A stretch of 22,124 bases of DNA, from the IMG/VR virus record IMGVR_UViG_3300038701_002630, positions 1 through 22,124 of that record; one strand, 5' to 3'. Below the pieces are notes generated by a model. The model worked only from the letters and a program-made list of their open reading frames with translations, ran no database searches and was not told where the DNA came from. This DNA comes from a virus. This document shows positions 6,458-21,717 of this stretch, one piece after another (position 1 is the first letter of the stretch; the number at the start of each line of letters is the position of its first letter). A program made the position numbers and the translations under genes.

Positions 6458-7855
6458 ATGTCAATTTTGACAAAAGCAGACGCATATAAATATTCTCACT
6501 TTAATATTTTCCCAAAAAACATTACAAATAACAACTCATACATCGAGTCACGTGGTATTGATGAAGAATCAAAACTACCTGCAGATGCTGAGGTGCTCTT
6601 CTTTGGTCTTCAAATTTATTTGAAGAAGTATTTAAATGAGAAAACTACAAAAGAAGAAATAGATAGAATGGCTATTCTTATGCCTCGTGCCGGTTTACCA
6701 TTCAACAAAAATACTTGGGATATCATTGTAAATGAATTTGATGGGTATCTTCCTGTAGAAATCGAAGCTATTCCTGAAGGAACTGCAATCGATCCAAGCC
6801 AAGTAATGTTTCAAGTAAGAGCAACAGATGATCGCTTCGCTGAAATCGCATCATTTATTGAAACATCTTCACTTCGAGCAATTTGGTATACAACAACTGT
6901 TGCCACACTTTCACGAGAAGTAAAGAAAATTATTAAACTTCATATGTTAAAAACATGCGATACTTTAGATGGCTTACCATTTAAATTACATGATTTTGGA
7001 GCAAGAGGCGTAAGCTCTCACGAATCTGCCGTAAATGGTGGATTAGCTCACTTGGTAAATTTCATGGGTACCGATACTGTTGAAGCCTTATTCGGTGCAA
7101 TTGATTACTATAACGTTCCATTAGAAAATCCAGTTGGGTTTAGTATTCCAGCATCTGAACATTCTACTATCACATCATGGGGTAGAGATGGCGAATTAGA
7201 TGCATATGAAAACTTCCTGGATATTTATGGTGGTGAAGGTAAAATTATCTCATGTGTAAGCGATAGCTATGATATCTATAATGCTGTGGATAATCTATGG
7301 CCTTCTCTGAAAGATAAGATCGTTGATAGTGGAACAACATTGGTTGTTCGTCCAGACTCAGGTGATCCAGTAACTGTAGTTATTAATATTCTAAAATCAT
7401 TAGAAAAATCATTTGGTTACGAAACAAACAGTAAAGGATATAAAGTACTGAATAGCGTAAGAGTTATTCAAGGGGATGGTATCGATATTGAATCACTTGA
7501 AGATATTCTTAATAACATGACAGCTATGGGTTTTTCAACTGAAAATATTGCCTTTGGTATGGGCGGAGCATTACTTCAAAAAGTTAATCGTGATACTCTT
7601 AAATTTGCTCAAAAAACCAATGCCATTGAGAAAGATGGCGAATGGATTGATGTATATAAAGATCCAGTCGGTTCAAGCTTTAAGAAGTCTAAAAAAGGAC
7701 GTCTTGCATTAATCAAAGAAAATGGTAAATTTAAAACTATTAGATTTGATGAATTGGGCGATAGAAAGAATTATCTAGAGCCAGTTTGGAGAAATGGTAA
7801 GCTTCTAAAGGATTACACATTCGATGAAGTTAGACAAAATGCGGAGGTGCTATAA
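6458..7855 (+). CDS. nadV: nicotinamide phosphoribosyltransferase (NadV/NAMPT)
   Basis: Makes nicotinamide mononucleotide (NMN) from nicotinamide and PRPP, the first step of the two-step NAD+ salvage route. The family opening is visible as KADAYKYSHFNIFP with IESRG shortly after. HDFGARGVSSHESA and AHLVNFMGTDTVEA match the human NAMPT core; the Asp in GTDT corresponds to the residue that favours nicotinamide over nicotinic acid. SIPASEHSTIT carries the catalytic histidine at H235 (human H247). Length 465 aa, near the family norm (human 491). The SD GGAG sits in a hairpin loop. The stop overlaps the nadM start (TAATG), so both salvage enzymes are made together. KVP40-type vibriophages carry the same pair. 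Confidence 0.95.
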   Translation: MSILTKADAYKYSHFNIFPKNITNNNSYIESRGIDEESKLPADAEVLFFGLQIYLKKYLNEKTTKEEIDRMAILMPRAGLPFNKNTWDIIVNEFDGYLPVEIEAIPEGTAIDPSQVMFQVRATDDRFAEIASFIETSSLRAIWYTTTVATLSREVKKIIKLHMLKTCDTLDGLPFKLHDFGARGVSSHESAVNGGLAHLVNFMGTDTVEALFGAIDYYNVPLENPVGFSIPASEHSTITSWGRDGELDAYENFLDIYGGEGKIISCVSDSYDIYNAVDNLWPSLKDKIVDSGTTLVVRPDSGDPVTVVINILKSLEKSFGYETNSKGYKVLNSVRVIQGDGIDIESLEDILNNMTAMGFSTENIAFGMGGALLQKVNRDTLKFAQKTNAIEKDGEWIDVYKDPVGSSFKKSKKGRLALIKENGKFKTIRFDELGDRKNYLEPVWRNGKLLKDYTFDEVRQNAEVL

Positions 7856-8898
7856 TGAAAAAGATCGGCGTATTTATCGGTAGATTTCAACCATTCCACT
7901 ACGGTCACCAAGCTATTGTAAAGGAAGGTCTAAAACAATTAGATGAAGTAATTATCATTCTGGGTTCAAATAAAAAGGCTCAAAATACCAGAGAGCCTTT
8001 ATCAACCGAAGAACGACAAGCAATTATTACATCGTATTTTAATGAAGAAGAACGTCCACGTATTAAATATGGATTTGTAGAAGATTACAAATACAATGAT
8101 GACAAATGGTTAAGCTCTATTTCTACAGTTGCACATAATCTTGCTTGGAAACCATGGCATAGTGATTCTGTTGAATTCTATTTGATTGGAATGAATAAGG
8201 ATTCAAGCTCATATTACGTAAATAAATTTCCTCAGTGGAAATCCTTAGTAATTGAAAATGATCCTGAGAAAGATGTGATTTCTTCTACTGATCTTAGAAA
8301 TGGTTATTATAAAAATGCCTACCATTTGCCACTCAGTACAAGCTACTTATATTTTACAAACTATATGAATGAAATTGCAGCTAAATTATTCGTAAAATAT
8401 ATGAATAAGAAAGCAAAAAATTTAATTTATGAACACGCTTATGAAAGAACCTATAAAGATAATTGGGGAATTGGTCCTCATATGACCGTTGATTCTCTTA
8501 TCACTCAGGCGGGTCATATTCTTTTAATTCAAAGAGGTGCTGAATACGGTCATGGCAAATGGGCGATGCCTGGTGGATTTATCAATCCTGATGAATTTAC
8601 TTTGGACGCATGTATTAGAGAATTAAAGGAAGAAACATGTATTAAAGTTCCTGAAAAAGTTCTTAGAGGATCTATTGTAAAAAATAAATTATATGACGAT
8701 CCTTATAGATCAAACCGAGCTAGAATTTTAACGAATGTATTTCAGTTTAAGTTAAATGATGTTGGAGATCTTCCAAAGGTTAAAGGATCTGATGATGCTC
8801 AAAATGCAAAATGGATTCCTATCTCAAAATTCTTAAAAATGAGAGAACAAATGTTCGAAGATCATTATGATATTATTTGTGATATGTTGAAATTATAG
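7855..8898 (+). CDS. nadM: bifunctional NMN adenylyltransferase / Nudix hydrolase (NadM-type)
   Basis: The N-terminal domain joins NMN and ATP to give NAD+; the C-terminal Nudix domain probably hydrolyses ADP-ribose, as in Synechocystis and KVP40 relatives. Residues 9-18 are GRFQPFHYGH, holding the HxGH motif (H15, G17, H18); ISSTDLR at 142-148 is the second nucleotidyltransferase signature. The Nudix box starts at G241 (GGFINPDE), with the metal ligands in RELKEET at 255-261. The usual Gly of REUxEExGU is Cys262, a position that is relaxed in this subfamily as I recall it. Length 347 aa, normal. The SD GGAGG lies in the end of nadV. With nadV it forms a complete nicotinamide-to-NAD+ pathway. 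Confidence 0.95.
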   Translation: MKKIGVFIGRFQPFHYGHQAIVKEGLKQLDEVIIILGSNKKAQNTREPLSTEERQAIITSYFNEEERPRIKYGFVEDYKYNDDKWLSSISTVAHNLAWKPWHSDSVEFYLIGMNKDSSSYYVNKFPQWKSLVIENDPEKDVISSTDLRNGYYKNAYHLPLSTSYLYFTNYMNEIAAKLFVKYMNKKAKNLIYEHAYERTYKDNWGIGPHMTVDSLITQAGHILLIQRGAEYGHGKWAMPGGFINPDEFTLDACIRELKEETCIKVPEKVLRGSIVKNKLYDDPYRSNRARILTNVFQFKLNDVGDLPKVKGSDDAQNAKWIPISKFLKMREQMFEDHYDIICDMLKL

Positions 8899-13893: not shown

Positions 13894-14436
13894 TTAAAGA
13901 AGTTCTCTAATTTCTTTATTAATTTGAGCTAGATACTCATTGGATAAGAGGACAATGTTTCTCTTATCCTCATTTAATTCCATTTCATAATCAAACAAAT
14001 AAACAGGTGTCCACCCGGCTCTGTCATCTTCTGATGTGTTATTAAATGTAGCTTCGCTCATTTTCCAGTTTTTTCTGGCGATTTCTTCTTTAGAGTCACC
14101 CGTGATTCCTGTATATTTATAATGATGGATCTGATTTTTGGTATCATTTATGTTACCATAATTTCTTTCCATATATCTATAAAATTCTCTATAGGATTTA
14201 ACCCAATCAGAATGAATATCCATTATATTATTTGGATAACATACTAACCATTCATAAGATGATTCTCCGTAATAGTCATATGCTATTGTATCAGGTCTTT
14301 CTCCATCTTTAACTGAATATGGATAGAAAACCTTATATTTGTTGATAATATCTCTCACTAAACCTAATTTAGCGATAATATTTCTTGATTCTTTATTTTC
14401 ATATGTTACTTTGGGAAAATACGTAAAAATATCCAT
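13894..14436 (-). CDS. 53: baseplate wedge subunit, T4 gp53-like
   Basis: T4 gp53 is part of the baseplate wedge and helps lock wedges together around the hub. The 180-aa product opens with MDIFTYFPKVTY and contains KVFYPYSVKDGERPDTIAYD followed by YYGESSYEWLVCYPNNIMD. This is the gp53/LysM-like layout 'yysI.dgerPd.iAy.yYg..e..WlI...Nni.Dp..dWp.s...f..yi...Yg'. DWVKSYREFYRYMERNYG follows at about 78-95. T4 gp53 is of similar size (196 aa). The start overlaps the gp48-like stop (TAATG on the minus strand), so the two baseplate proteins are co-expressed, probably from the late promoter at 15280-15287. Confidence 0.88.
   Translation of the reverse strand: MDIFTYFPKVTYENKESRNIIAKLGLVRDIINKYKVFYPYSVKDGERPDTIAYDYYGESSYEWLVCYPNNIMDIHSDWVKSYREFYRYMERNYGNINDTKNQIHHYKYTGITGDSKEEIARKNWKMSEATFNNTSEDDRAGWTPVYLFDYEMELNEDKRNIVLLSNEYLAQINKEIRELL
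13895..13918 (+). terminator. possible hairpin at the convergent gene junction
   Basis: Bases 13895-13904 pair with 13909-13918 (10 bp, one G-U) around the loop CTCT, in the 3' end of gp53 and just past the oxygenase stop. The stem has a single G-C pair, and only a broken U-run (TTAATTT) follows, so it would be a weak terminator for the plus strand at best. Confidence 0.25.
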
Positions 14437-15239
14437 TATTGTCCATCTCTCAGTACGTTTCTTGTTATAATGTTTGTTTCATTGAATCTTATACCTAATT
14501 CAACTGTAACTGGTGCACCGGACTTATAGAATGACATACCTTCTCCTGAAGAAGTGTTTACTGTGACTTCTGATATAAATGATCTATAAAACTTGGGTAA
14601 ATATTCTTTAGATTCGCCTTCAAAATCTACATATACCAAATCAGGATAATCCAAAGCGTAGCCTTCAACAGCTTCCTCTGGATGAATTCTTTCTTTAATG
14701 GTATCTATAATCTGTTTTAAACTATCGGATTCGCTTTGTGATCTTGGAGAAAATTTCCAATTTAAATAGTAACCTCTAAGATTAACGCCATCAAAGAATG
14801 AAGTTGTGTGAGGGTTCTTAACAATACCACCAACGATACCTGACTGAGCTCTTCTGTCATCGTTAGTTAATAAAGGTGTTAATGCGATAGCTCTTGCAAC
14901 GTCTTTTTTAGAATCACCTGAAAACTCGTTCTTTAATTTATCTGCGATAGAACCGCCTGAAAAAGCATCGGCGGCATTAGTAATATTTTCAGTAAATGCC
15001 ATATCATATGTACCGGTTTTAATTGACATTACGTCCGGTATCTGTTGAGGTAAAGGTAAATTAATGATAGCGGTAGTCACGTTTGAAGGTTCAGACGAAG
15101 GCCTGTCTCTATTATATTCTTCAAATCTTAACACAGTTCTCTTGGACAATATATCACTAAGTGGAAATTGCATATTTGATACATTTCCATTAGCTCTTTG
15201 TGATGTCTCTATAGGATTACTTGAAGATGGTCCTGCCAT
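14436..15239 (-). CDS. 48: baseplate tail-tube cap protein, T4 gp48-like
   Basis: In T4, gp48 sits on the baseplate hub and, with gp54, starts tube assembly. The match is best in the second half: YYLNWKFSPRSQSESDSLKQ corresponds to T4 VFTWDLTPRSTEDLMAIINI, and FYKSGAPVTVELGIRFNETN with ITRN corresponds to the T4 C-terminal LPSTFTLEITMREIITLNR. The N-terminal 100 residues are Ser/Asn/Pro-rich and then Ala/Asp-rich, with few fixed motifs. At 267 aa it is much shorter than T4 gp48 (364 aa). SD AAAAGG. Assignment to gp48 rather than another tube-fold baseplate protein is likely but not certain. Confidence 0.7.
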   Translation of the reverse strand: MAGPSSSNPIETSQRANGNVSNMQFPLSDILSKRTVLRFEEYNRDRPSSEPSNVTTAIINLPLPQQIPDVMSIKTGTYDMAFTENITNAADAFSGGSIADKLKNEFSGDSKKDVARAIALTPLLTNDDRRAQSGIVGGIVKNPHTTSFFDGVNLRGYYLNWKFSPRSQSESDSLKQIIDTIKERIHPEEAVEGYALDYPDLVYVDFEGESKEYLPKFYRSFISEVTVNTSSGEGMSFYKSGAPVTVELGIRFNETNIITRNVLRDGQ

Positions 15240-15253
15240 TATAGCCTTTTTTG

Positions 15254-15282
15254 TTTACTTTAATTTGTTTATATGTTATTAT
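15254..15282 (+). promoter_or_regulatory. sigma70-type early promoter, TTTACT-17-TATTAT
   Basis: TTTACT at 15254-15259 (preceded by G) and TATTAT at 15277-15282, 17 bases apart. It drives the small-gene block 15307-16061 and overlaps the minus-strand late element of the gp48-like/gp53 pair. Confidence 0.6.
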
Positions 15283-15287
15283 TTATA
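15280..15287 (-). promoter_or_regulatory. T4-type late promoter TATAAATA for gp48-like and gp53
   Basis: Perfect TATAAATA on the minus strand (TATTTATA as written). The predicted start near 15274 lies 35 bases before the gp48-like ATG. It shares three bases with the -10 box of the divergent early promoter. Confidence 0.6.
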
Positions 15288-15868: not shown

Positions 15869-16061
15869 TTTTGAAGATATTTTAATAGGATTTTTTGCTA
15901 TTATGTATTATCTGGGAGCAATATTTTTCTGGGGTTTTATGGGATTAATTGCTCTCGCTGGTGTATTGCTTATTATAAAAACTGCAACCATTCAAGGCAC
16001 TCTTCTTTTTGTTGCTTCAGCCTGCGTGACAGTATTTCTTTTTATTAATCATCTAAGATGA
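15858..16061 (+). CDS. two-TM small membrane protein
   Basis: The 67-aa product has hydrophobic spans at about residues 8-36 and 46-64, with short tails (MKINFEDI at the start, NHLR at the end). It is probably an inner-membrane hairpin. The SD is AGAAGATGAAG-type and weak, so coupling to the upstream gene is likely. Its end overlaps the oppositely oriented gp2-like gene by 9 bases. Confidence 0.6.
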   Translation: MKINFEDILIGFFAIMYYLGAIFFWGFMGLIALAGVLLIIKTATIQGTLLFVASACVTVFLFINHLR

Positions 16062-16667
16062 CTTTTGTATTTTATCAATAGAATCATCCCATACTTTACG
16101 GGCACTTGCTTTTTGAAATCTAGCTAAAGGCAACATCATTGCATAATCCCATTCTTTAACGTCAATTTCGATCATTTGACTTTGAACATGGGATGCTAAA
16201 TATCTTTTGATACATGGCTTAAAGTAGCTAAACTTAGATGCTGATTGTAAAAGCTGATATGACATATTTAATTTTGTTGTATCATCGTATTTTTGATTAT
16301 TTAATAAATCATATAATTCGTCCATTAATCTGGCTCTAAACACAGGCGGCAAATAGTGCATGTTTAGACCTAGCCATCCATCTTTATACAATTCAATTGG
16401 AAATATTACTGGAAATTTATCCCAATATGGTAATGTAGCTTTATGTTTAGCATCATAGAAATAACATACCATTGTTCCAGGTCTTAATGAAGTTACCACA
16501 TTAGCTTTGGCTTTTTTAGTTCCAATAAATCTATTCGGACTTGTATTTTTAGAAGAAGCTTCTAGTGCTTTATCTCTTAGAAAGTCTCTGAGCAGAACAG
16601 AACCAAATTTTGGATTGTGTTTTCTCTCTGCTTGTTTTAATACTTTCGAAAATAATAATGATGCCAT
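16053..16667 (-). CDS. 2: probable DNA end protector protein, T4 gp2-like
   Basis: T4 gp2 binds the ends of packaged DNA, completes the head, and shields injected DNA from host RecBCD. The 204-aa product has the layout I know from gp2-like proteins of T4-type phages: SLRPGTMVCYFYDAKHKATL, then PYWDKFPVIFPIE, then GWLGLNMHYLPPVFRARLMD (about 96-115), and FKPCIKRYLASHV followed by EWDYAMMLPLARFQKAS near the end. It is somewhat shorter than T4 gp2 (about 274 aa). In T4 the order is 2-4-53; here the three genes lie in separate minus-strand blocks. The start overlaps the stop of the ART-like gene (TAATG), placing it in one late operon with two proteins carrying apparent capsid-targeting signals. 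Confidence 0.6.
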   Translation of the reverse strand: MASLLFSKVLKQAERKHNPKFGSVLLRDFLRDKALEASSKNTSPNRFIGTKKAKANVVTSLRPGTMVCYFYDAKHKATLPYWDKFPVIFPIELYKDGWLGLNMHYLPPVFRARLMDELYDLLNNQKYDDTTKLNMSYQLLQSASKFSYFKPCIKRYLASHVQSQMIEIDVKEWDYAMMLPLARFQKASARKVWDDSIDKIQKSS

Positions 16668-17221
16668 TATTCAAACTGCTTTCTTATTTCTTCGCCTGTA
16701 AATGTAGTTCCATGTGTTGAACTGAAATATTTAAACTTATCAAAATTACTTACGTGTGCGACTTTTTTCATATCTGACGATCTTTGAAAAATAATACATT
16801 CGGTATATTCATGAAGATTCTTAATGCTTCCTATTACAAATTCTTCAAATAATTCTTCATCTTTAGCATGTTTATTTTTTCCCGCTGCTGCATATATATT
16901 TATTGGTATAATTTTATGTCTCTGTGCAAGCTTTCTTTGATTTAATTTAATAATATAATGACCGCCTCGCCAATTTTCAGCTGATTTTAAACTACGTGTT
17001 AATGAAATTCCTCTCATTGATTCTCTACTTGTAAAATGCTTCATCTTAACATTTTTCTTAGGATTAAACTCGCCATAAAAATCCTGAGCCATAAATTTAT
17101 CATAATGATCTGTATAACCCTCTAATTTATCGTATTGAATTATTCTCTTAATTGCAGTGAAATTAGTTGAGTGATATAAAGGGGCGTCACGTCCTTCTTC
17201 TAGGTATTCTTTAAAGTTCAT
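16667..17221 (-). CDS. ADP-ribosyltransferase-like protein with capsid-targeting N-terminus (copy 2)
   Basis: The 184-aa product begins MNFKEYLEEGRDAPLYHST. The first ten residues resemble the T4 internal-protein capsid-targeting peptide (MKTYQEFIAEA), and LEE|G fits the gp21 protease site (L/I)xE|(G/A/S). After it come ART-fold elements: a LYHST first strand (H17), GISLTRSLKSAENW (about 70-83), and an acidic FEEFVIGSI (about 134-142) where ART enzymes have their catalytic Glu. T4 Alt has LYRSQ, FVSTSLYP and EMEVILP in matching places; here His replaces Arg, as in H-containing ART groups. An upstream in-frame ATG at 17236 is rejected since it would bury the signal. Targets unknown; activity is inferred only. 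Confidence 0.65.
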   Translation of the reverse strand: MNFKEYLEEGRDAPLYHSTNFTAIKRIIQYDKLEGYTDHYDKFMAQDFYGEFNPKKNVKMKHFTSRESMRGISLTRSLKSAENWRGGHYIIKLNQRKLAQRHKIIPINIYAAAGKNKHAKDEELFEEFVIGSIKNLHEYTECIIFQRSSDMKKVAHVSNFDKFKYFSSTHGTTFTGEEIRKQFE

Positions 17222-17690
17222 TAATAAATTTCCCATCTACAAATAATTTAGGATGATTTAATACTTCTTTACTTGCTTCTGTGTTATAGAAAATATTGTC
17301 AGTAAAATGTATTTTGTTAATATATTTATTGGGATCTTTAATTGGTCCTATTACAAATTCTTCAGCTTCACTATTATTCATTTCTCTAGCAGCACCTGAT
17401 GACATAAGCGAATAATTAAATGGAACAATTTTATATCTCTGAGATAGCTTTCTTTGATCAAATTCTATTACACAAGATCTGGCCATTTTAAATGGAGTTT
17501 TCATAGCCCAATTTTTCGCAAATCTAAAATCACGAGTAAGAGAAACACCATCAATTCTTTTTTTATTAATATTTTGAGTCGTCCAGGCTTTAACTATATT
17601 ACCCTTTAAAATTTGATTTAAACTATCAAGGCTCGTAGCATGAAATAAAGGAGCGTCGCGTCCTTCTTCTAGAAATTGTTTAAAATTCAT
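17211..17690 (-). CDS. ADP-ribosyltransferase-like protein with capsid-targeting N-terminus (copy 1)
   Basis: This 159-aa paralogue of the next gene starts MNFKQFLEEGRDAPLFHATS. The shared elements are the N-terminal signal with LEE|G (residues 7-10), LFHAT (H17), GVSLTRDFRFAKNW (48-61), DQRKLSQRYKIVPFN (78-92) and AEEFVIGPI (109-117). The motif block between the two copies is clearly related, while the loops differ (copy 1 lacks about 20 residues before GVSLTR). The bases encoding the N-terminus are nearly identical, showing a tandem duplication. SD AAGAGAT. It heads the late operon ART1-ART2-gp2-like. Alternative: a catalytically dead ART-fold head protein. Confidence 0.65.
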   Translation of the reverse strand: MNFKQFLEEGRDAPLFHATSLDSLNQILKGNIVKAWTTQNINKKRIDGVSLTRDFRFAKNWAMKTPFKMARSCVIEFDQRKLSQRYKIVPFNYSLMSSGAAREMNNSEAEEFVIGPIKDPNKYINKIHFTDNIFYNTEASKEVLNHPKLFVDGKFINEL

Positions 17691-17708: not shown

Positions 17709-17716
17709 TATTTATT
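17709..17716 (-). promoter_or_regulatory. late-promoter-like AATAAATA for the ART/gp2 block
   Basis: One mismatch to TATAAATA on the minus strand. The predicted start near 17703 gives a 13-base leader with AAGAGA before the ATG at 17690. It sits one base beyond the -35 box of the divergent early promoter. Confidence 0.4.
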
Positions 17717-17746: not shown

Positions 17747-17767
17747 AAATATGAAATGGAGAAGAAA

Positions 17768-17965
17768 GTGGAAACTTCAATAGTCATATTAATTATGTGG
17801 ACTGTTCTGAATCCTGATACTGGAGCTGAAGAATTTCGTCATAATTTTATTGAAAGACAGAATACTACATGCGAATTAATTATACCCGAGCTTGAGATGT
17901 TCAAAACAGAAATGATCAAGCGCGGAGTTTTTCGTAATTATGAATATGTTTGTAAGGAATATTAA
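17768..17965 (+). CDS. small hypothetical protein, GTG start
   Basis: An ATG at 17756 is in frame, but it contains the SD itself: GGAG at 17758-17761 lies six bases before a GTG at 17768, and the promoter would start RNA at about 17753. The GTG is therefore preferred. The 65-aa product (VETSIVILIMWTVLNPDTGA then EEFRHNFIERQNTTCELI) has a beta-like N-terminus rather than a true membrane span. No family recognised. Its stop overlaps the lipoprotein start (TAATG). Confidence 0.55.
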   Translation: METSIVILIMWTVLNPDTGAEEFRHNFIERQNTTCELIIPELEMFKTEMIKRGVFRNYEYVCKEY

Positions 17966-18195
17966 TGAAATACTTAATGATTTTGTTGACATTATTTTTA
18001 GTGTCATGTGAAGGTAAAACATATGAACCTTTTAAACGAGGAGATGTTGTAACTCACAAATCAGATGGAAACAAAGCTGTCGTTTCCTATTGTAAAGCTA
18101 CACATAAAGGTTGTTTTGTATCTATAAGTACTAGATATACCTTAATGTTCTGGGGATTACACGAAATTAAAGAAACAGGAGCAACAAATGACTAA
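17965..18195 (+). CDS. small phage lipoprotein
   Basis: The 76-aa product has a signal peptide MKYLMILLTLFLVSC ending in a lipobox (LVSC, C15), so the mature protein would be lipid-anchored. Residue +2 is Glu, not Asp, so sorting to the outer membrane is expected by the usual rule. The mature part includes FKRGDVVTHKSDGNKAVVSY, a KOW/SH3-like strand pattern, and two cysteines that could pair. Phage lipoproteins such as T5 Llp block receptors against superinfection; a role of that kind is possible here but unproven. SD AAGGAA. Overlaps the next gene by 8 bases. Confidence 0.7.
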   Translation: MKYLMILLTLFLVSCEGKTYEPFKRGDVVTHKSDGNKAVVSYCKATHKGCFVSISTRYTLMFWGLHEIKETGATND

Positions 18196-18382
18196 ATGGA
18201 TTGAGAATGATTTTTCTGGAAAATGTCCGATTCCTAATGCAAAAAGCGGAGAATATGAATTAAAATTTAATAATGATGAAGACTTTATACCTTCATTTTC
18301 TACAGCCGATGAATGGGACTGGAATAGATGTAAATTTGAAGATGATAATATTACTCATTATAGACTATTGGAGAAACTATGA
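18188..18382 (+). CDS. small acidic hypothetical protein
   Basis: The 64-aa product (MTKWIENDFSGKCPIPNAKS, ending DDNITHYRLLEKL) has the 'W......p......ITHYR' layout seen in many short phage proteins of unknown function. It is acidic with several tryptophans (DEWDWNRCKF). SD GGAG. It overlaps both neighbours (8 bases before, ATGA after). Confidence 0.6.
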   Translation: MTKWIENDFSGKCPIPNAKSGEYELKFNNDEDFIPSFSTADEWDWNRCKFEDDNITHYRLLEKL

Positions 18383-18705
18383 GATACGTTACTCCTATAT
18401 CATGTCCTTTCTGCGGCGAGGAACCCAGAATTAAAACTTCGGGTTCTTTCGATGGGTGGAATGCAACAGTTCAATGTTCTAATACTAAATGTCACGCATA
18501 TCCTTCGGTAAGCGATGAAGGTAAAGGCTTAGAGCGAACAACCAGTAATGCAATTGAACTTTGGAATAAAAGAAGCTTCAGTGACGATGAAGGTGATTTA
18601 ACATATCATTTAAATAGATCTAAAAAGCTTGCTCCCAACGAAATGGTGAAGAGATGTATTGATATGATTATTAAAGAAGTAAAAATTCTTATCAAAAAGG
18701 TTTAA
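18379..18705 (+). CDS. Lar-like zinc-finger protein (copy 2, with C-terminal extension)
   Basis: Residues 9-55 show the Lar pattern clearly: CPFCGEEPRIK, then DGWNATVQCSNTKCHAYP, then SNAIELWNKRSF ('A-x-x-x-W-N-x-R'). The four cysteines likely bind zinc. A further 45 residues (to 108) form a basic helical tail absent from copy 1 at 6183-6365. Lar in E. coli alters type I restriction-modification; phage Lar-like proteins are widespread and mostly untested. Coupled to the previous gene by ATGA, with GGAG upstream. Confidence 0.75.
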   Translation: MRYVTPISCPFCGEEPRIKTSGSFDGWNATVQCSNTKCHAYPSVSDEGKGLERTTSNAIELWNKRSFSDDEGDLTYHLNRSKKLAPNEMVKRCIDMIIKEVKILIKKV

Positions 18706-18706
18706 A

Positions 18707-18901
18707 ATGAAAGTTTCACAATTAATTCATCAACTTAAGAAATGTCATCCCGACGACGATGTTGAAATTTCAATCGATTACGAAAATACACCTGAAGATG
18801 AAAGAGAATTCGGCGTATGTATTGGGCTTAATGAAATCACTCCCGTAAGTATTGGAAGTGTAACTCTATTATGCGAATGCGAAGGTAAGAATGTCACATA
18901 G
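18707..18901 (+). CDS. small phage hypothetical protein ('KVSQLI..LKK..PDDDVEI' family)
   Basis: The 64-aa product opens MKVSQLIHQLKKCHPDDDVE, a very common phage pattern (short helix, 'P-D-x-x-V', then strands), followed by a two-strand unit ending in VSIGSVTLLCECEG. Function is unknown across the family. SD AAGG, one base after the previous stop. It overlaps the next gene by 11 bases. Confidence 0.7.
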   Translation: MKVSQLIHQLKKCHPDDDVEISIDYENTPEDEREFGVCIGLNEITPVSIGSVTLLCECEGKNVT

Positions 18902-19124
18902 TCTGCAGCAAGAATATATCGATGAAGAAATTAAAAAAGAAGAAATTATTCACGATATTAAAAAGAAAGTTAATGAATTGAATAATTTATTTAGAGAAGC
19001 AGCTTTAGTTGGAATGGATGTTAATCTTACAATTAAAGATGGGCGATCTGTAAACTCACGATCTTATCCATGCATTCAAGGAAATGTTACTGAAACTTAT
19101 ATAAAAGGATCTATCCATGGATGA
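18891..19124 (+). CDS. hypothetical protein with coiled-coil helix
   Basis: The 77-aa product has a long charged helix at about residues 5-38 (EYIDEEIKKEEIIHDIKKKV onward), which may form a coiled coil, then a short beta-like tail with VNLTIKDGRSVNSRSYPC. No named family. SD-like GAAGGTAAG precedes the ATG in the end of the previous gene. Confidence 0.6.
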   Translation: MSHSLQQEYIDEEIKKEEIIHDIKKKVNELNNLFREAALVGMDVNLTIKDGRSVNSRSYPCIQGNVTETYIKGSIHG

Positions 19125-19317
19125 TTGGATATCAAACGTAATGGGCTTTCTTTTAATTATTGCCTTTGCCATGCTTTTAATTACAACAATGAGCGAAGGC
19201 GAAAAGAAATTAGAATTTATTAAAAAATGCGAAAGCGATAATGGAATAGTTATGAAAAAATCAAAAAATCGAGAATTATTCTGTATTGATGAATCTGCAA
19301 TTAAGGAAATTAAATAA
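19117..19317 (+). CDS. membrane-anchored Cys-pair protein (paralogue A)
   Basis: The 66-aa product has one span at about residues 7-25 (VMGFLLIIAFAMLLITTM), then a small domain LEFIKKCESDNGIVMKK ending ELFCIDESAI. The two cysteines, about 19 residues apart, could form a disulfide in the periplasm. The next gene repeats the layout (EFIKDCEGRGGIAIK and PACIIEN). The pattern 'F...C...GGi.......C' recurs in small phage proteins of unknown role. SD AAAGGA. Confidence 0.6.
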   Translation: MDDWISNVMGFLLIIAFAMLLITTMSEGEKKLEFIKKCESDNGIVMKKSKNRELFCIDESAIKEIK

Positions 19318-19526
19318 TGGGTTGGGAAGATGTATTTTTTCTATTAATAGTAGTAGCTTTTCTGGGATGCTTAGTGTGGGCTAGTAAAAGCTCATCCTAT
19401 TTAGGCGAATTTATTAAGGACTGCGAGGGACGTGGTGGTATCGCTATAAAGATATTATCAGAAAATGAACCCGCATGTATTATTGAAAATAATGAGTTGG
19501 TAAGAAGAGGGGATTTAGATAAATAA
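19317..19526 (+). CDS. membrane-anchored Cys-pair protein (paralogue B)
   Basis: The 69-aa product has a span at about residues 6-22 (VFFLLIVVAFLGCLVWA), then GEFIKDCEGRGGIAIKILSE and PACIIENNEL, in line with the previous gene. The two are tandem paralogues. The start is coupled to the previous stop (TAATG). The product may lie in the inner membrane with the Cys domain outside. Function unknown. Confidence 0.6.
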   Translation: MGWEDVFFLLIVVAFLGCLVWASKSSSYLGEFIKDCEGRGGIAIKILSENEPACIIENNELVRRGDLDK

Positions 19527-19528
19527 TG

Positions 19529-19557
19529 TTTACATCTCGTTTAAATTTTGATATAAT
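19529..19557 (+). promoter_or_regulatory. sigma70-type early promoter, TTTACA-17-TATAAT
   Basis: TTTACA at 19529-19534 (preceded by G) and consensus TATAAT at 19552-19557, 17 bases apart: the closest to consensus of the set. The predicted start at about 19564 lies directly on the SD AAGGAGA. Confidence 0.7.
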
Positions 19558-19574
19558 AAAATAAAGGAGATGTA
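19531..19574 (+). promoter_or_regulatory. inverted repeat around the -10 box that would pair with the SD
   Basis: Bases 19531-19543 (TACATCTCGTTTA) and 19562-19574 (TAAAGGAGATGTA) are complementary at 12 of 13 positions, with one G-G mismatch. The right arm contains the SD of the gene at 19576. As at 8905-8946, RNA reading through from upstream would hide the SD, while RNA from the local promoter would lack the left arm. Confidence 0.6.
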
Positions 19575-19575
19575 T

Positions 19576-19854
19576 ATGAAATGTACTAAAAGAATAGAGC
19601 TTAAAATGCCAAAGGGCGAAGAGCTCGAATTGGAATTGCCGCTTGATGCTAAGATTCTTACCGTTAAGGTGTATAATTATGTTCCTACAATGTGGATTGA
19701 ATATGACAATAATGAAAAGCGAACCATGAAGAAGACCTTCTATGTTGTGGGAGATCATGCTGAATTCCCATATAATAGAACACATATCTCTACATGTGTT
19801 TGGACAGCCAACAACGGAAAAGATTATTATTTCCATGTATATATGAAGAAGTAG
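19576..19854 (+). CDS. DUF7352-like hypothetical protein
   Basis: The start at 19576 is preferred over the ATG at 19570, which overlaps the SD AAGGAG. The 92-aa product follows the layout 'k..i.mP.ga.iL.v......p.lw..vd.......r.f.v.GtG.......y..t......fv.Hvy': here KRIELKMPKGEELELELP, DAKILTVKVYNYVPTMWIEY, KTFYVVGDHAEFPYNRTHIS and YYFHVYMKK. That family is common in phages and has no known function. It is probably under the hairpin control just upstream. Confidence 0.65.
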   Translation: MKCTKRIELKMPKGEELELELPLDAKILTVKVYNYVPTMWIEYDNNEKRTMKKTFYVVGDHAEFPYNRTHISTCVWTANNGKDYYFHVYMKK

Positions 19855-19856
19855 CT

Positions 19857-20063
19857 ATGAAATATATAATTAAAAATACAGACGAACAGGTATTAACTAC
19901 CTTTAATAGTGAATATTCCTTTAGAGGTAATGAAAATATCACACATGACGGTATCAGATATAATTTAGTGGGCAGAGTTAATGAACATGCTGGTCTTATA
20001 ACTGTTGGTTATGGTAATTATAATGGAACTATTATAGAATTCTATGGAGTCAAATGTGGTTAA
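19857..20063 (+). CDS. small beta-rich hypothetical protein
   Basis: The frame extends upstream to 19794, but the ATG at 19857, two bases after the previous stop, is the natural start. The 68-aa product (MKYIIKNTDEQVLTTFNSEY, ending IIEFYGVKCG) has an alternating pattern that suggests a small beta barrel. No family recognised. Confidence 0.6.
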   Translation: MKYIIKNTDEQVLTTFNSEYSFRGNENITHDGIRYNLVGRVNEHAGLITVGYGNYNGTIIEFYGVKCG

Positions 20064-20109
20064 TAGAGTTCCATACGCGTTTAGACCAATGTCAGAAATG
20101 TTAGGATAG
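20056..20109 (+). CDS. possible 17-aa peptide, GTG start
   Basis: A GTG at 20056 lies six bases after GGAG (20046-20049) and opens a short frame MVNRVPYAFRPMSEMLG that ends before the next SD. It fills the gap between two genes and overlaps the previous stop. An ATG at 20054 in another frame is an equal competitor (16 aa). The short length makes this a weak call. Confidence 0.25.
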   Translation: MVNRVPYAFRPMSEMLG

Positions 20110-20113
20110 GAAA

Positions 20114-20353
20114 ATGTTTACATTATTTATATACGTAGGATTAATCGTACTATTATGTATAGTTATGAAATTTGTTGGTGAGACAGTTGACGAAACAAAT
20201 CGTTTATATCTTATTAGTAGATTAAAAAACAGGGGTTGTACTGAGGATGAGATTAATAAGCACTTCGAGATCAAGGATGCTTATGATCCCACATTCACAA
20301 CTCACAAAGAAGACCATATGCATCAATTAAAGATGAGAAGATTTGAACACTAG
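20114..20353 (+). CDS. membrane-anchored hypothetical protein
   Basis: The 79-aa product has an N-terminal span at about residues 2-20 (FTLFIYVGLIVLLCIVMKF), then a soluble tail whose segment LISRLKNRGCTEDEINKHFE looks like a short helix-turn-helix-shaped pair of helices, followed by a His/Lys-rich end. A membrane-tethered regulator is conceivable but speculative. A clear SD (AGGATAGGAAA) precedes the ATG. Confidence 0.6.
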   Translation: MFTLFIYVGLIVLLCIVMKFVGETVDETNRLYLISRLKNRGCTEDEINKHFEIKDAYDPTFTTHKEDHMHQLKMRRFEH

Positions 20354-20371
20354 AATATTGCTTAAAGTTAA

Positions 20372-20479
20372 TTATTTGTCCTTAGGTAAAGGTAACTTAT
20401 AATCAGGATTCCAAATAAATTGAACCGGAGAATTAGGATCTTTTTCTTCTAATCCTTTATTAATAGGAATATAGCACAT
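20372..20479 (-). CDS. 35-aa late-type small protein on the minus strand
   Basis: Within what otherwise looks like a 210-base gap, the minus strand reads MCYIPINKGLEEKDPNSPVQ, then FIWNPDYKLPLPKDK and a stop. AGAGG lies a few bases before the ATG, and an AATAAATA late-type element lies at 20498-20505, so the peptide has a complete expression signal. It is rich in Pro, Lys and Asp, without a membrane span. No family recognised; its late-type signals suggest a minor virion or assembly role. Confidence 0.5.
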   Translation of the reverse strand: MCYIPINKGLEEKDPNSPVQFIWNPDYKLPLPKDK

Positions 20480-20497
20480 TTTAACCTCTTTTATTGA

Positions 20498-20505
20498 TAT
20501 TTATT
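20498..20505 (-). promoter_or_regulatory. late-promoter-like AATAAATA for the 35-aa gene
   Basis: One mismatch to TATAAATA, minus strand, one base beyond the -35 box of the divergent early promoter, exactly as at 17709-17716. The predicted start near 20492 leaves a 13-base leader. Confidence 0.4.
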
Positions 20506-20506
20506 G

Positions 20507-20535
20507 TTTACATCCATAGCACTTTATGTTATATT
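20507..20535 (+). promoter_or_regulatory. sigma70-type early promoter, TTTACA-17-TATATT
   Basis: TTTACA at 20507-20512 (preceded by G) and TATATT at 20530-20535, 17 bases apart; the SD AAGGAG follows at 20551-20556 before the ATG at 20564. Confidence 0.65.
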
Positions 20536-20563
20536 TAATTTATTCAAATAAAGGAGATATAAA

Positions 20564-20797
20564 ATGTCAGTTAGATCAAAAGTTCATCGCACAGCAGTAG
20601 CAGATTACAATGATTCTATGCCAGGCGTTGTTGATGTATGTATTTTAAAAAGAGAAAAAAATCCTTCAGATGCATGGATGAGCATGGGCGACCATGATGG
20701 AACCTCTAGTATCGTAATTGGTACACGCGAACAAGCCAAACAATTAATTGAAGCTCTTCAGTCCGGTATTCGTGAAATCTGGCCAGAAGACGAATAG
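20564..20797 (+). CDS. small phage hypothetical protein
   Basis: The 77-aa product (MSVRSKVHRTAVADYNDSMP, later TSSIVIGTREQAKQLIEALQ) has a strand-turn-helix layout: 'ssIVIGTREQAKQLIEAL' is a common phage C-terminal unit in which a strand is followed by a helix that starts at TREQA. Function unknown. Strong SD AAGGAG and its own promoter imply high early expression. Confidence 0.65.
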   Translation: MSVRSKVHRTAVADYNDSMPGVVDVCILKREKNPSDAWMSMGDHDGTSSIVIGTREQAKQLIEALQSGIREIWPEDE

Positions 20798-20807
20798 GAG
20801 AATTATT

Positions 20808-20999
20808 ATGACTTTTGAATATAAGCTAAGATCAAAATATGTACCAGACGAAGTTCAGCATCTCGTAAAAAGATTTGACAATAATCCATGTATGCTTTAT
20901 TACGGAACTTTATATTTGTCGGAATATGTAGAGCATGATCGTCTTTCTTTTCAAGCTGAATCTCATCACAGAACAGAACCACTATTAGATAGGGCTTAA
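20808..20999 (+). CDS. small hypothetical protein
   Basis: The frame is open from 20748, but AGGAG at 20796-20800 fixes the start at the ATG at 20808. The 63-aa product (MTFEYKLRSKYVPDEVQHLV, ending HRTEPLLDRA) is charged and probably mixed alpha/beta, with no signal or membrane span. No family recognised. Confidence 0.55.
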   Translation: MTFEYKLRSKYVPDEVQHLVKRFDNNPCMLYYGTLYLSEYVEHDRLSFQAESHHRTEPLLDRA

Positions 21000-21004
21000 G
21001 ATGA

Positions 21005-21226
21005 ATGGAGAGTATATTGATCGATAATTTAAAAAACTGTAGATCGTTTCGTATTGGTCGGATATCACCTATACAATTAAAAAGAAGTGTTGCATATGTT
21101 CGTGCAACTTTTTGGGACAGAAAATTTGCATCTGGATGTAAAGTAATATCAAATCCGGATCGTAACAGAATTTTCGTTCAGAGCTATTATAATAAACGAC
21201 TATTGAAAATACATTTATATGGATAG
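21005..21226 (+). CDS. small basic hypothetical protein
   Basis: The 73-aa product is rich in Arg and Lys (SFRIGRISPIQLKRSVAYVR and FASGCKVISNPDRNR) with a strand-rich pattern, as in small nucleic-acid-binding phage proteins, though nothing proves binding. The start is uncertain: ATG 21005 has only a weak SD, while a TTG at 21017 has GGAGAG just upstream. The gene ends three bases before the oppositely oriented gp4. Confidence 0.5.
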   Translation: MESILIDNLKNCRSFRIGRISPIQLKRSVAYVRATFWDRKFASGCKVISNPDRNRIFVQSYYNKRLLKIHLYG

Positions 21227-21229
21227 ACC

Positions 21230-21682
21230 TTAAAATACACCCAATTCATCTTCTGTAAAGATTTTGAATTCCCATCCCTTATTGACGCATGCTTTCTTAG
21301 CTGCTTCCCATTTGGCTGAATTAACTCCCCAGGTCAGCACCTCGTTTAGGAATGTTTTCTCTCTTTGATTCTTTCTTCTAACGGGTGCCATGACTTGCTT
21401 TTTGGGCTTTACTTCTATAAGCCATTTCTTTAAATTCCCATCCTTATCCTTAAACTCTACGTAAAAGTCCACAAAATATCTATGATAACGATTATCAACA
21501 GGAGATTTATAGGGTATTACAACTTCCTCTGATGACCACTGGAGCACGTCGGGGTGTTTGTCCAGTTTAGACATAAGTTTTAGTTCCCACCCGCTTCTAT
21601 AAACTATGGATCCTCTTTTAACATTCCCTTTATATTTTTCTGGGTTTATGGGCTTAAAGAACCCTTGTTTATACTTAGCCAT
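21230..21682 (-). CDS. 4: head completion protein, T4 gp4-like
   Basis: T4 gp4 (formerly gp50/gp65 group) is needed to finish DNA-filled heads before tails attach. The match is close along the whole length: YKQGFFKPINPEKYKG, YRSGWELKLMSKLDKHPDV, PYKSPVDNRYHRYFVDFYV, IEVKPKKQ and GWEFKIFTEDELG align with T4 YKQGLFKPSNPKKYVG, YRSSWELKLMMYLDKHPDV, PYRSPVDGKVHRYFPDFKV, IEVKPKKQ and GWEFMIFTEDHLG. Length 150 aa, as in T4. The start at 21682 is chosen over an in-frame ATG at 21709 because of the T4 alignment and the SD AAGGAAA. E33, D72 and the E90-V-K92 pair form a PD-(D/E)xK nuclease-like layout known for this family. Confidence 0.95.
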   Translation of the reverse strand: MAKYKQGFFKPINPEKYKGNVKRGSIVYRSGWELKLMSKLDKHPDVLQWSSEEVVIPYKSPVDNRYHRYFVDFYVEFKDKDGNLKKWLIEVKPKKQVMAPVRRKNQREKTFLNEVLTWGVNSAKWEAAKKACVNKGWEFKIFTEDELGVF

Positions 21683-21691
21683 GAATTTCCT

Positions 21692-21699
21692 TATAAATA
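21692..21699 (+). promoter_or_regulatory. T4-type late promoter TATAAATA for the tail tube-fold gene
   Basis: Perfect TATAAATA on the plus strand, 36 bases before the ATG at 21735. The predicted start near 21705 leaves a 30-base leader with AAAGG at 21726-21729. Confidence 0.6.
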
Positions 21700-21717
21700 A
21701 TAAAAACAATACAATAA

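Follow-up and report, generated by a model that had tools for sequence, protein, structure and literature searches.

The stretch analyzed here, the window, is a 22,124-base IMG/VR virus record (IMGVR_UViG_3300038701_002630) whose source, judged from its sequence, is a T4-like myovirus. Pfam and PHROGs identify in it a DNA ligase, NAMPT, NMNAT-Nudix, gp53, gp48/54, gp2, and gp4. Our subject is a pair of paralogous genes, ART-A and ART-B, that immediately precede gp2 and encode small proteins resembling ADP-ribosyltransferases (ARTs). An original prediction, made from the sequence without database searches, proposed that both proteins carry a T4-type capsid-targeting signal and are injected with the phage DNA.

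A family of ART-like proteins

ART-A and ART-B are 33-34% identical (two-sequence BLASTP E 2e-25), and both begin MNFK(Q/E)(F/Y)LEEGRDAPL. Conserved blocks are found at the N-terminus (the first 12-15 residues) and at L(F/Y)H(A/S)T, G(V/I)SLTR, and EEFVIG. Every motif named in the original prediction is present; to that description we add the strand, which is minus. Neither protein has a match above cut-off in Pfam, PHROGs, or NCBIfam, and single-protein searches return next to no relatives. The family was reached via a two-sequence alignment search of IMG/VR, and a wider alignment added further relatives. Invariant in an alignment of 41 members are E9, R11, L15, H17, R53, Q79, and E110, and E111 is kept in 40.

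Copies share 90% identity over residues 3-17, versus approximately 23% across most of the body, and in the former segment codon differences number 682 synonymous versus 208 nonsynonymous. Thus, the signal and the start of the ART are maintained by selection on the protein. Gene conversion as the cause of the identical N-termini is ruled out, as the codons differ synonymously. In the tree, which has many deep branches without resolution, paralogues from a single genome fail to group together, and the partner of ART-B is the copy at 38772 of G001, a related 109-kb contig (support 99/91). With same-genome copies scattered in this way, recent within-genome expansion is unsupported.

A predicted fold and a residue order like those of DarT

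The AlphaFold2 models of ART-A (predicted local distance difference test, pLDDT, 85.9; predicted template modeling score, pTM, 0.82) and ART-B (pLDDT 79.3; pTM 0.76) are not independent tests, because both were built on alignments of the same family. In Foldseek searches of the PDB, both match DarT first (probability 0.98-1.00), then Tpt1, and then other ARTs. The top match of ART-B is E. coli DarT1, and Scabin is also matched. The high-probability PDB matches of both models are ARTs, as the original prediction had expected of a structural comparison. Identity to DarT is only approximately 10%. Profile searches of PDB sequences point the same way, with DarT1 at the top, or Tpt1 with DarT1 close behind, all at weak E-values. 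Members scanned singly against Pfam retrieve mostly ART families (HYD1, PARP, DarT, KptA, and ART-PolyVal), below cut-off; the best Pfam matches are HYD1 (0.0021) and PARP (0.0056), both also below cut-off. For DarT (PF14487), the best score is 12.2 bits (E 0.0093, in G001), short of the 22.5-bit cut-off. Membership in that family is ruled out by this cut-off; the likeness to DarT stands.

Thermus DarT binds NAD through H13 and T15, and its catalytic residues are R51 and E160 (PMC9967889). The family has H17-x-T19, R53, and E110 in the same order, and, on the basis of this order and of strand position, these residues may be equivalent to those of DarT. The strand 1 position is occupied by His, not Arg, in 41/41 members, in line with the earlier remark that the proteins carry His where T4 Alt carries Arg. 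Kinship with Alt is ruled out: the residue class is wrong (not R-S-E), and there is no sequence link. We regard the ART fold of both proteins as highly probable, and catalysis by them as likely.

A signal at the start of unrelated proteins

T4 capsid-targeting sequences suffice for packaging foreign proteins, and gp21 removes them (PMC5694885, PMC3012670). From the T4 and window signals we built the motif M.{1,2}[FY].[^P][FYH][LIM].E and scanned all open reading frames (ORFs) of at least 60 amino acids in the window, T4, Rhizobium phage RHph_I1_18, G001, and C30, the last a 186-kb phage-like contig within a Hyphomicrobiales metagenome-assembled genome. The motif occurs at 31 ORF starts versus 0 of 5,955 internal methionines, and thus is no chance pattern; the 31 are not independent, because about half are ART copies. 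By genome, the starts number 2 in T4, 6 in RHph_I1_18, 14 in G001, 2 in the window, and 7 in C30. As a control, T4 is informative: the motif selects only ipII and ipIII there, and it misses IPI (MKTFKEF...). Further loci (L078-L110) contain a single internal match, in L100.

The signal is borne by unrelated bodies in RHph_I1_18 (5/6), G001 (4/14), and C30 (3/7). One ART relative begins MKTYQEFLTEGRDAPLYH, to be compared with MKTYQEFIAEA of T4, and one of the unrelated ORFs with the signal adjoins gp67. The proposal of a T4-type capsid-targeting signal is therefore supported by its restriction to starts, by its presence on unrelated proteins and on T4 IPII and IPIII, by a protease site that matches, and by the late head and baseplate gene order of the locus. 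Head targeting of ART-A and ART-B is strongly supported by these comparisons, and we consider it very likely that their N-termini are such a signal. A separate group of ART relatives (L052, L056, L061, L062, L063, L064, and L065), some in large phages, keeps EGRDAPLYHG and starts with MRLHQIT, MRFHEII, and the like; these divergent starts are perhaps another head signal.

The cleavage site claimed earlier, LEE|G, fits the prohead protease consensus. Across the 41 members, P3 is L/I (41/41), P2 is variable, P1 is E (41/41), and P1' is G/A/S/V. The aligned major capsid proteins (gp23) read FLTE|A (T4), PLQE|A (RHph_I1_18), GLSE|A (G001), and VLTE|A (C30), all but the T4 site being predictions from the alignment. 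L-x-E at P3-P1 is thus common to the ARTs and the predicted gp23 sites, and P1' of gp23 is Ala. Cleavage after Glu9 is probable.

Genomic context and copy number

Features of the locus are collected in Table 1. The original prediction placed the ART genes in an operon with gp2; ART-A and ART-B overlap by 11 nucleotides, and ART-B and gp2 by 1. The window proteins gp2 and gp4 are, respectively, 56% and 55.7% identical to those of RHph_I1_18.

Table 1. Features of the ART locus in the window
Feature	Position	Strand	Basis
ART-A, 159 amino acids, head-targeted ADP-ribosyltransferase-like (predicted)	17211..17690	-	AlphaFold2 model, Foldseek PDB, 41-member alignment
ART-B, 184 amino acids from ATG at 17221, ART-A paralogue	16667..17221	-	33% identity, AlphaFold2, Foldseek
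ART-A predicted capsid-targeting propeptide, MNFKQFLEE	17664..17690	-	Start-only motif, family P3-P1', gp23 sites of relatives
ART-B predicted capsid-targeting propeptide, MNFKEYLEE	17195..17221	-	As for the ART-A propeptide
gp2, DNA end protector, follows ART-A and ART-B as third in the run	16053..16667	-	phrog_429 E 1.8e-51
gp48/54-type baseplate tail tube cap protein, late context	14436..15239	-	phrog_230 E 1.1e-32
gp53 baseplate wedge protein, late context	13894..14436	-	PF11246 30.1 bits; phrog_232
gp4 head completion/closure protein, bounds the ART slot on the side opposite gp2	21230..21709	-	phrog_218 E 4.8e-56
Possible T4-type late promoter, weak	17709..17716	-	AATAAATA, one mismatch to TATAAATA, 18 nucleotides before the ART-A start

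The gene order gp4-[ART]n-gp2-gp48/54-gp53 is common to the window, G001, and C30. The twelve ART copies of G001 are distributed over three sites. Nine occupy the region around gp4 as far as gp2 (38772-43988), two lie on either side of gp16, between gp15 and gp17 (77689 and 78648), and the last is close to an Acb1 gene (14045). Of the four intact copies in C30, the first is in the gp4/gp2 slot, another separates gp48/54 from gp53, a third follows gp53, and the fourth is located elsewhere. In RHph_I1_18, gp4 adjoins gp2 and the slot is empty. At L081:6786-7484 (+), the gp4-gp2 slot is filled by an ORF (MRFKEFICEGSTNC...) that bears the signal on an unrelated body and has no Pfam match; therefore, the slot behaves as a cargo site. 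In T4, ipI is located near the gp2-gp4 gene group.

Elsewhere in the window, an exact TATAAATA lies at 15280-15287, 41 nucleotides upstream of the gp48/54-type gene. Approximately a dozen very small ORFs occupy 17756-21226 (+), between gp4 and the ARTs, and are not found in the slot of G001 or C30. NAMPT and NMNAT-Nudix are adjacent at 6458-8898 (+) and make up an NAD+ salvage pair; the candidate NAD+-using ARTs belong to the same phage.

Other probable addresses and cargoes

Two further phages carry shared starts of their own. In the Alishewanella phage Slickus01, ten genes share MKIDxLYESLLEE|G-like starts, with no internal matches. The set comprises five ART relatives, an ART-PolyVal protein, Acb1, and three others, and nine of the ten genes lie in one cluster approximately 4 kb from the large terminase gene. 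The ART-PolyVal protein scores above the Pfam cut-off and is a separate neighbor, not a member of the ART-A/ART-B family; Acb1 scores 106.6 bits in Pfam. The Slickus01 major capsid protein has ISE|S at the expected position. In the Pseudomonas phage Lu11 (L128, 1981-10727 and beyond), the exact start MKIQLA is shared by six genes in a 12-kb stretch; three encode ART relatives, and the bodies are unrelated and of very different lengths. Genome-wide, all 6 MKIQLA matches fall at starts, and the reversed control gives 0. A literature search listed no virion proteomics of Lu11 among its top matches. Because the Slickus01 and Lu11 motifs were written after the sequences had been seen, they lend support but do not count as independent tests. 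That ART relatives bear the signal of their own phage is a strong argument for regarding the N-terminus as an address rather than a part of the enzyme.

The ARTs are not the only candidate enzymes with such addresses. Acb1 anti-CBASS proteins (PF23474, above cut-off) with the head-type signal of their own phage are encoded at L067:13070-13558 (+), L058:5556-5999 (+), and L131:7251-7745 (-). Two signal-bearing Acb1 proteins pass the 27-bit Pfam cut-off with 43.8 and 70.4 bits. These sequences suggest that Acb1 is pre-loaded in the heads of some phages. T4 57B begins MMEFKDFSTG. Signal-bearing proteins of approximately 210 amino acids at L124:3895-4539 (-) and L127:6665-7300 (-) have a kinase-like glycine loop and lysine (GSGKYAVVYENKKYPYIIKVFM; GLSRVAFLVTYQGRKTVIKVAL) and no Pfam match above cut-off. 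Finally, RHph_I1_18 has a second possible small family of approximately 145-160 amino acids, all members starting M(I/Q)xFK(Q/E)HxxES (L014:31057-31503 (-), L014:31503-31937 (-), L014:46838-47281 (+), and L015:29751-30236 (-)); two of them are phrog_6387-like.

Proposed injection of the enzymes and the alternatives

We conclude that ART-A and ART-B are, with good probability, head-packaged, protease-matured, and injected DarT-like ARTs, a reading in which we infer packaging, cleavage, injection, catalysis, and target. The notion is that both are late-expressed internal head proteins. Residues 1-9 would fold into a capsid-targeting helix of the T4 type, by which each ART docks on the prohead core, a gp21-type prohead protease would cut after Glu9 to leave the mature N-terminus GRDAPLYH..., and a compact DarT-like ART would be enclosed in the head with the genome. 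At infection, the ARTs would enter the cell with the DNA, a step we hold to be quite probable, and would use host NAD+ to ADP-ribosylate host molecules before phage transcription. Because of the likeness to DarT and Tpt1, the likeliest targets would be nucleic acid or nucleic-acid-bound; a nucleic-acid target is a tentative and somewhat doubtful assignment. Several diverged copies per phage may provide several specificities, much as each of T4 internal proteins I-III disables a host enzyme of its own.

Several points weigh against this conclusion. Foldseek E-values are only approximately 2e-3, with template modeling (TM) scores of 0.44-0.59, and no scanned family member passes a curated ART profile. 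Conservation of GRDAPLYH runs beyond the proposed cleavage site; therefore, part of the conservation reflects the fold and not the signal. Some distant relatives (Dickeya JA11, Bacillus SP-15) have no recognizable signal. Lastly, a late promoter for ART-A is a weak proposal: one-mismatch TATAAATA sites are almost equally frequent in shuffled sequence, and for that reason the candidate is excluded from the evidence.

The alternative that survives best, though we judge it unlikely, is that the proteins are packaged and ART-folded but have lost catalysis, and that they bind and inhibit host defense enzymes as T4 IPI-III do. T4 internal proteins with a similar signal inhibit GmrSD enzymes (PMC12373910), and the ART bodies are highly diverse except for a few blocks. 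An inhibitor scaffold, however, needs none of the expected NAD-binding and catalytic residues, and H17, R53, and E110 are invariant in all 41 members.

Somewhat less probable again is that the ARTs are made late and act, unpackaged, in the producing cell, for host or competitor control or as a toxin-antitoxin system, the N-terminus being merely part of the ART family. The EGRDAPLYH block is indeed common even where the preceding residues differ, and a late position among the genes is not in itself proof of packaging. Against this stand the presence of the signal on unrelated proteins of the same phages and on T4 IPII and IPIII, and the ART relatives whose other, phage-specific N-termini are common to unrelated neighbors. 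Moreover, no antitoxin gene, and specifically no DarG macrodomain, is recognized adjoining the ARTs in the window, where the neighbors are gp2 and unrelated small ORFs; a DarTG toxin-antitoxin reading is ruled out without a macrodomain neighbor. That the proteins are structural components of the head scaffold or core, with an incidental resemblance to ARTs, is very improbable: the genes do have head and baseplate genes around them, and gp67 adjoins one signal-bearing ORF, but copy number varies (twelve in G001, four in C30, none at the slot in RHph_I1_18) and the invariant residues are of ART type.

Beyond the window, we see about even chances that T4-like phages possess a modular head-loading system in which a phage-specific, exchangeable N-terminal address delivers an enzymatic cocktail, with, at its core, an array of DarT-like ARTs that can grow in number and whose targets differ, together with pre-loaded Acb1 and kinase-like proteins. 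If the injection of ART-A and ART-B is correct, the idea of T4 injected proteins, which has covered small inhibitors and a single large ART, extends to arsenals of toxin-like enzymes present in multiple copies, and a sequence rule becomes available for listing the injected effectors of uncultured T4-like phages. A set of diverged DarT-like enzymes with candidate DNA, RNA, or protein targets would likewise be in hand. Acb1, if it is pre-loaded in heads as suggested, would cleave CBASS signals as soon as infection begins.

Comparison with known systems

Phage ARTs are often packaged and injected, packaging being inferred from gene context and from MuF/portal fusions (Iyer et al. 2022, PMC9503650). 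The parts of that survey covered here contain no description of this family, its signal, or its arrays. Likewise, in the portion of the literature on phage ARTs and injected proteins that was covered, we found no account of the family, arrays, slot, or signal exchange.

DarT (DarTG; PF14487) is the best structural match, and its H-x-T, R, and E follow one another as they do in the ARTs; the ARTs differ in scoring below the family cut-off, in having no DarG partner, in being phage-encoded, and in carrying a head signal. Tpt1/KptA, the RNA 2'-phosphotransferase, is the structural match after DarT, and Tpt1 has an LYHGT/LFHGT-type motif. The ARTs, in contrast, possess the invariant Glu110, which KptA (H-H-h class) does not use, and there is no significant sequence match.

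T4 Alt is an ART with an N-terminal propeptide, packaged in a T4-type head and injected with the DNA. The comparison with Alt drawn in the original prediction holds as a precedent for an injected ART, and not as a guide to structure, as the nearest solved structures are DarT and then Tpt1 and the H-x-T...R...E pattern is DarT-like. Alt is a 682-residue protein of the R-S-E class present as one copy plus fragments, whereas ART-A and ART-B, at 159 and 184 residues, are far smaller, as had been noted, and are His-type, DarT-like members of multi-copy arrays; no similarity to Alt is detected in their sequences. T4 IPI, IPII, and IPIII have a short signal of the same pattern and small variable bodies, several per phage. 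Unlike the ARTs, which have one common enzymatic fold, the IPs have no body homology among themselves and are restriction-enzyme inhibitors; injected T4 internal proteins with this kind of signal are specific inhibitors of GmrSD enzymes (PMC12373910). The closest precedent is T4 Alt together with the internal proteins. Packaging of phage ARTs and T4 injected inhibitors were known; the DarT-like fold, the arrays, and the exchange of signals are new.
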